The translations under genes and the position numbers were made by a program. 35,007 nt of DNA. Origin: Candidatus Duberdicusella sinuisediminis (GTDB lineage Bacteria; Omnitrophota; Gorgyraeia; Duberdicusellales; Duberdicusellaceae). The stretch spans positions 1-35,007 of the forward strand of contig QNCG01000005.1 in NCBI GenBank assembly GCA_003644445.1. Reading direction: 5' to 3'. Each line of letters starts with the position of its first letter. The first letter of the stretch is position 1. Below are positions 4,209 to 5,413 of this stretch, in pieces. The notes below the pieces were generated by a model that saw only the letters and a list, made by a program, of their open reading frames with translations, did not search any database and was not told where the DNA came from.

Positions 4209-4284
4209 GGGGCCGTAGTTCAGCTGGGAGAACGCTACGCTGGCAGCGTAGAAGTCAGGGGTTCAAATCCCCTCGGCTCCACCA
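4209..4284 (+). tRNA. tRNA-Ala (anticodon GGC), encoded CCA end
   Basis: GGGGCCG...CTACG-CTGGCAG-CGTAG...GGGGTTCAAATCCCC...CGGCTCC-ACCA; full cloverleaf, anticodon GGC. Confidence 0.95.
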
Positions 4285-4370
4285 CAGTTAAATTGCTAAA
4301 TTCTCATACTATTAAAGTTATTTTTAATCACCAATTTTTAGAAGTTTGAGAATTGGGCAAGATAGATTAG

Positions 4371-4457
4371 CAGGGGATGTTATCTTGGCAAAGTAGAAGT
4401 CAGGGGTTTCCGCCAGAGGCGGACCCGCCTTAGGCGGGCAAATCCCCTCGGCTCCAC
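4371..4457 (+). pseudogene. Decayed tRNA-Ala copy (3' half) with a 30-bp insertion in the T-loop
   Basis: 'GTAGAAGTCAGGGGTT' + 30-bp insert + 'CAAATCCCCTCGGCTCCAC' matches the intact tRNA-Ala 3' half exactly on both sides of the insert. The 5' part is only weakly similar. Confidence 0.8.
4409..4438. repeat. Tandem double palindrome TCCGCCAGAGGCGGA + CCCGCCTTAGGCGGG
   Basis: Two adjacent 15-bp near-perfect palindromes located exactly between GGGGTT and CAAATCCCC of the tRNA-Ala pseudo-copy. Confidence 0.85.
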
Positions 4458-4564: not shown

Positions 4565-5413
4565 TTGTTAAGACTAGGAGTTCAAGTTTCAATCTCGGGC
4601 AGGCTTTCTAAAGCTGTAGAAAGAGCTAAGGTGTTAGGCTGTAATACTATTCAGATTTTTTCTCGTAATCCCCGTTCTTTTAAAAGGGTTTTACGGGCAG
4701 AAGAAGAGATAGAAGAGTTCAAGAAGAAGAGAAGAGAGGCCAGAATTTACCCTTTATTTATTCATACAGTCTATACTTTAAATTTAGCTAGTTCTGATAC
4801 AAGATTTTATAGACTTTCTATCCGTGATTTTATAAGAGATTTAAGAGATGCCCAAGATTTAGGAGCTGAGTTTATAGTAACTCACATTGGCAGTTTTAAA
4901 AGAAGTTCCCGGCAGAAAGGAATTAAGAGGGTAATTAGAGCTTTGGAGAATATCTTGGGTAAGATGCCTTCTTCTTTAACCCTTCTCTTAGAAAATACTT
5001 CCGGAAGTGGCCATTGGTTAGGTGCAGATTTTAAAGAGATAGCTTATATAATTAACAGCCTGGGTAAGCCTAAAAAAATAGGTGTATGTTTAGATACTTG
5101 CCATGCTTTTTCTGCTGGCTATAATTTAAGAGAAGCAAAGGGGCTTAGAGAACTTCTTAGAGAGATAGACTGTTATATTGGGTTAGACAGACTCAGGCTG
5201 ATACACCTTAATGATTCTCAGGATAAATTAGGCTCTTATAAAGACAGACACTTCCATATTGGAGAAGGGTATATTGGCGAAGAAGGCTTCAGAAGAATAA
5301 TAAACCACACTCAACTCAAGAATTTACCTTTTATTTTGGAGACACCCAAGAAGAAAGAAGAAGACGATTTTAGGAATTTGGAAAAGGTAAGAAGACTCTA
5401 TAAGAACTTATGA
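4565..5413 (+). CDS. nfo: Endonuclease IV (AP endonuclease family 2)
   Basis: LGVQVSISGRLSKAVERAKVLGCNTIQIFSRNPR, LLENTSGSG, GVCLDTCHAFSAGY, IHLNDSQDKLGSYKDRHFHIGEGYIG: metal-ligand motifs of endonuclease IV. Confidence 0.93.
   Translation: MLRLGVQVSISGRLSKAVERAKVLGCNTIQIFSRNPRSFKRVLRAEEEIEEFKKKRREARIYPLFIHTVYTLNLASSDTRFYRLSIRDFIRDLRDAQDLGAEFIVTHIGSFKRSSRQKGIKRVIRALENILGKMPSSLTLLLENTSGSGHWLGADFKEIAYIINSLGKPKKIGVCLDTCHAFSAGYNLREAKGLRELLREIDCYIGLDRLRLIHLNDSQDKLGSYKDRHFHIGEGYIGEEGFRRIINHTQLKNLPFILETPKKKEEDDFRNLEKVRRLYKNL

Follow-up and report, generated by a model that had tools for sequence, protein, structure and literature searches.

The 30-nucleotide insert that interrupts a second, decaying copy of a tRNA-Ala(GGC) gene in the window (the whole 35,007-nucleotide stretch of Candidatus Duberdicusella sinuisediminis DNA that was analysed) is probably a copy of a dispersed double-hairpin repeat, kept in a tRNA copy that had become redundant. 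The repeat unit favours the loops of redundant tRNA copies, and no description of this preference, or of such palindromes or hairpins in bacterial tRNA genes, was found in the literature searched (subscription papers were not covered).

An interrupted tRNA-Ala copy beside an intact gene

The locus begins with an intact tRNA-Ala(GGC) gene on the forward strand (positions 4209-4284; ARAGORN, and Infernal RF00005 with 66.1 bits), which is the empty paralogue of the interrupted copy. The second copy, the satellite, is delimited by alignments to positions 4363-4457 of the same strand, its 5' part being eroded, and the spacing between gene and copy is only about 80-110 bp. Within the satellite, GTAGAAGTCAGGGGTT is followed by the 30-nt insert at 4409-4438 and then by CAAATCCCCTCGGCTCCAC. 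The insert consists of two abutting perfect 15-bp palindromes, TCCGCCAGAGGCGGA at 4409-4423 and CCCGCCTTAGGCGGG at 4424-4438, and the whole 30-mer is itself a near-palindrome. When the 30-mer is folded with the T-stem alone, the predicted RNA prefers one long hairpin over two short ones, and the predicted fold of an 88-nt context contains two hairpins. The downstream gene, on the forward strand at 4565-5413, encodes deoxyribonuclease IV (nfo; NCBIfam TIGR00587) and is mentioned for context only.

A double 15-bp palindrome in the T-loop of a decaying tRNA-Ala copy had been described at 4371-4457 in the first-pass annotation, and the sequence there is as claimed. The accompanying statement that both flanks are identical to the intact tRNA, with the boundary resolved to the base, is equally accurate: positions 4393-4408 and 4439-4457 are identical to the intact tRNA-Ala(GGC) on the two sides of the insert, which occupies the T55|C56 bond of the T-loop and cannot be shifted by one base. 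No target-site duplication was found at this insert. The description of the copy as a 3' half is right for the 3' part and wrong for the 5' limit, as the decayed 5' part can be aligned from about position 4363 when the corresponding copy of the congener G001 is used as a bridge, so that the satellite is a near full-length tRNA copy. Likewise, the idea of a natural before/after pair is sound for the insertion boundary and not as a literal pre-insertion allele, since the intact neighbour is a paralogue. A remnant of an integrative element, with the two pieces as attL and attR, was considered for the locus and rejected, because the gap of about 80-110 bp between the two tRNA pieces holds no integrase gene and no element.

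The congener G001, a separate assembly from the same genus, also has the interrupted Ala copy, inside a contig; its insert lies at the corresponding bond and differs in a single loop base. An assembly chimera had been named at the outset as a possible refutation, and contigs of these metagenome assemblies do often end at such loci; however, the same structure inside a contig of an independently assembled genome excludes a chimera in practice. As the insertion is common to the window's own genome (G000) and to G001, it predates the species split, assuming that it was not acquired twice. Between the two genomes, the Ala satellite with its insert has 0 substitutions in 65 positions, against 29 in 168 for the flanks; for the insert alone, the conservation relative to the flanks reaches p of only 0.01.

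Dispersal of the repeat

The proposed search for further copies of the palindrome in the genome was fruitful, with 11 occurrences of YCCGCCNNNGGCGGR in G000 and 0 of the reversed control. The unit, of the type YCCRCC-N3-GGYGGR in two abutting 15-bp palindromes, is present in its 30-bp double form in 51 of the 237 Omnitrophota genomes surveyed (those 85% complete or better), with 0 control matches and at most 48 copies per genome. Lying at several unrelated places and above chance, it is a generic dispersed palindromic repeat, and from this dispersion we infer that it moves as DNA. A viral carrier was considered and rejected, the T-loop pattern having 0 matches in viral contigs.

Most copies in the own genome sit within broken tRNA copies, which were assigned by eye and in several cases confirmed by BLAST. 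The rRNA operon's intact Ile and Ala genes are followed by a broken Ile copy and a second broken Ala copy; a broken Val copy lies behind Val(GAC), and a broken Tyr copy with inserts in both its anticodon loop and its T-loop lies behind Tyr. A Ser(GCT) copy with a D-loop insert stands in front of its intact gene, and Ser(TGA) has an insert in the anticodon loop. Relatives from other families share the 35|36 position of the Tyr insert and have a Ser(GCT) copy with a D-loop insert, together with further sites in Thr(TGT) (35|36), Arg D-loops, Val T-loops and Ser(TGA) (35|36); in G171, two tandem Arg copies with D-loop inserts precede the intact gene. The insertion points in the spare tRNA pieces fall in D-loops, anticodon loops (35|36) and T-loops (55|56 and 56|57), and the bodies of most interrupted copies are truncated or eroded. 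The first-pass annotation had missed that several other broken tRNA copies of this genome, and similar copies in other phyla, also carry the unit in their D-, anticodon- and T-loops.

Sites taken without selection give the same picture. tRNA-like sequence surrounds the unit at 15 of 84 such sites, against 71 of 3366 local control positions (2.1%; p = 8e-9, computed with 14), and as many controls were drawn near tRNA genes, this enrichment is probably understated. Nearly all of the 15 occupy the central part of a D-, anticodon- or T-loop, usually with an intact version of the gene alongside; one, L075, lies in a stem, and the weakest matches are uncertain. The idea that the unit generally occupies hairpin loops was dropped as weak outside tRNA, a flanking stem of at least 4 pairs being present at 28% of sites versus 14% of control positions. 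The flanks in the list of sites are often T-rich before the unit and A-rich after it.

The unit also enters reading frames. An open frame runs across it at 54 of the 84 sites, and in 37 of these 54 the frame is the same one (TCC), reading SAxGGSAxGG (p = 1e-7); some of the cases in other frames are probably spurious frames. The in-frame host proteins include what we take to be GlnA, MurB, DapA, NadA and DapF.

Across GTDB, a scan for the T-loop form returned 55 stretches in Omnitrophota, Patescibacteria, Margulisiibacteriota, Melainabacteria, Planctomycetota and others. Judged by eye, about two thirds of them resemble 3' parts of tRNAs, most of which directly follow an intact tRNA gene, and the remainder are other hairpins or ORFs. 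In Patescibacteria group bacterium STA_35 (L203:4950-5130), the 3' end of tRNA-Met is present three times in tandem 68-bp repeats, each with the double palindrome in its T-loop. On several contigs of one Chloroflexota genome, C20_metabat.bin.54 (L168, L181, L185 and L207), the double palindrome lies within a dispersed hairpin GCGGGTT..AACCCGC.

Satellites with other hairpins or none

Double hairpins unrelated to the unit occupy the same kind of loop in Pro(GGG) of the own genome, Arg(TCT) of G171 and Ser(CGA) of G003. In the Pro(GGG) satellite (L052; G000:C55:310-450), the T-loop holds the hairpin pair CCCAGAACC..GGTTCTGGG and CCCAGCACC..GGTGCTGGG, which occurs at no other place in the genome and was for that reason set aside as a second dispersed family. 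Given these unrelated double hairpins and the undispersed Pro hairpins, one repeat family does not explain everything. A rule that every tRNA satellite has a hairpin pair was also tried; it holds for those found in G000 and fails in G001, G005, G006 and G280.

Several further arrangements were seen. On two contigs of G171 (L332 and L333; C12 and C29), the intact gene is preceded by serial tRNA-Arg 5' halves whose D-loops each hold a hairpin pair, and in L332 two successive Arg 5' halves have mutually unrelated pairs. On the reverse strand of L058 (about 950-1190; G000:C1), the inverted repeats CCCGCACTTTTT and AAAAGTGCGGG enclose an intact tRNA-Cys that is embedded in decayed sequence resembling tRNA-Cys. 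In G005 (L300 and L341; C20 and C64), only the first 14-16 bases of tRNA-Leu, followed by a hairpin AACAACT..AGTTGTT, are found upstream of tRNA-Leu genes.

Origin of the interrupted copy

If a stretch is duplicated in tandem and one of the breakpoints falls within a tRNA gene, an intact gene and a spare piece result; such an event would explain the redundant tRNA-Ala(GGC) copy downstream of the intact gene at this locus. The repeat would then have entered the T-loop of the spare copy at T55|C56, before the split of the two sequenced species of the genus, and the interrupted copy would have decayed thereafter. Insertion may favour symmetrical sites that are T-rich on one side and A-rich on the other, tRNA loops among them. 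Within tRNA genes the repeat would survive only where an intact copy remains, and within ORFs mostly in the one frame, where it would encode a flexible SAxGGSAxGG linker. A repeat that enters loops and is tolerated only in a spare piece explains why an intact gene adjoins, why the insertions lie in loops and why the copies decay. The facts that this duplication-plus-repeat view does not settle are the unrelated hairpins, the conservation of the Ala satellite, and tRNA-Ser(TGA), of which G000 has yielded interrupted copies only.

Alternatively, the satellite may itself be functional, its shape (a tRNA arm with extra hairpins) being kept beside an intact tRNA gene and acting either in the tRNA precursor, through processing, decay or termination, or as folded DNA, with the palindrome family as one of the means of forming it. 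What speaks for this possibility is that these loops can also hold unrelated double hairpins, that the Ala satellite is more conserved than its flanks, and that such satellites recur beside intact tRNAs in several phyla. It is nevertheless rather unlikely: gene conversion from the intact gene could explain the conservation of the tRNA part and palindromes can self-correct, the signal for the insert alone is modest, the majority of tRNA genes lack a satellite, and no paired hairpin is present in several of the satellites of G001, G005, G006 and G280. The spare pieces could instead be left by homing (GIY-YIG) or integrase events at the anticodon loop or T-loop, with the palindromes marking the site. 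The anticodon loop and the T-loop are indeed the classical sublocations for integrases in tRNA genes, and small GIY-YIG ORFs (PF01541) directly adjoin tRNA genes, mostly Ser and Tyr, at L064 (G000:C33:10500-12300), L119 (G006:C53), L102 (G003:C34), L110 (G002:C38) and L335 (G005:C61). In G006 and G003 the far side of the GIY-YIG ORF is flanked by a second tRNA 5' half, the stop codon of the G006 ORF lies within the tRNA, and in G000 such an ORF stands between interrupted Ser(TGA) copies. By hand count, roughly 6 of 14 small GIY-YIG genes are near a tRNA gene (p about 5e-7 against an estimated 2.4% of the genome). The GIY-YIG gene looks like a tRNA-associated homing-type gene, and these genes are a lead on the origin of the spare tRNA pieces, not a demonstrated source of the palindromes. 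Yet several points leave a site-specific footprint quite improbable. Neither a nuclease nor an integrase gene lies close to most satellites, that of the window included; a position in the D-loop is at odds with integrases; the palindromes are also present in ORFs and at a distance from tRNA genes; and the intact gene in G003 retains the same flank and would still be cut.

More remote is an intron-like insert that is removed from the transcript of functional tRNA genes. What recommends this notion is Ser(TGA) (L064:880-975; G000:C33), which is complete except for the double palindrome in its anticodon loop and, after removal of the insert, is recognised as a tRNA by ARAGORN; an intact tRNA-Ser(TGA) was not found in G000 or G001, incomplete assemblies from which several other tRNAs are also missing. 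The D-stem of this copy is weak, however, and most interrupted copies, the window's Ala copy among them, are truncated or eroded, with an intact copy adjoining; this makes the notion very unlikely. Classical REP elements moved by a RAYT transposase are more improbable again. The label of a REP-like mobile unit suits a short dispersed palindrome with copies in the genome and the phylum and fails in the RAYT sense: the suggested look-up of PF01797 (Y1 transposase) gave 0 hits in G000 (92% complete) and 0 in G095, which has 22 copies of the repeat, and elsewhere the domain is present in genomes with the repeat and in genomes without it, so that it does not track the repeat and the RAYT idea is not supported. 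The unit is also not mainly extragenic, given the open frames noted above, and is often in frame within them. No recurring GTAG/CGTC tag, a feature of large REP super-families (PMC3733652), was seen at the hairpin foot in the site flanks inspected.

Relation to known systems and outlook

The unit appears to work like a dispersed palindromic element of the kind of the Rickettsia palindromic elements (RPE) or the mitochondrial double-hairpin elements. RPE are inserted into reading frames in a tolerated frame and also into non-coding sequence, and the likeness lies in the in-frame insertion with a preference for one frame and in the additional non-coding sites. The unit differs in its 30 bp (RPE are about 100-150 bp), its two palindromes, its preference for tRNA loops and its occurrence in unrelated phyla. 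The tyrT locus of Escherichia coli offers a similar arrangement, an intact tRNA gene followed directly by repeated tRNA 3' ends; these are not known to have a T-loop hairpin pair, which is the feature of the present satellites. The mitochondrial elements of Allomyces and sponges, which include double-hairpin and further repetitive hairpin-forming types, are short and GC-rich, lie in spacers and in RNA and protein genes, and have no transposase of their own (PMC2800124). They share the two abutting GC-rich hairpins, by analogy only, whereas the unit lies in bacterial chromosomes, has another sequence and occupies loops in spare tRNA copies that neighbour intact ones. In the tRNA-Thr of Caldiarchaeum, a putative mobile element has left a 5' tRNA fragment upstream of an intact or interrupted tRNA, in a setting of archaeal introns and a recombinase-bearing 1.8-kb element (PMC3293823); a leftover tRNA fragment is common to both cases, and here it comes with a 30-bp palindrome pair without genes.

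A bolder proposal is that, in several uncultured phyla, partial tRNA copies with varied hairpin pairs in their loops form a hitherto undescribed structured element kept by selection, acting in tRNA precursors or as folded DNA, for which the palindrome family would have been recruited, possibly with intron-like removal in the apparently single-copy tRNA-Ser(TGA); this is speculative and improbable.

For the dispersed repeat favoured here, the sites described provide base-resolved insertion points for a bacterial palindromic repeat without a known transposase, many of them with the empty paralogous site adjoining, and reveal a strong preference for tRNA loops. They make testable how miniature repeats spread and what effect hairpin-bearing satellites may have on tRNA production in bacteria known only from metagenomes.
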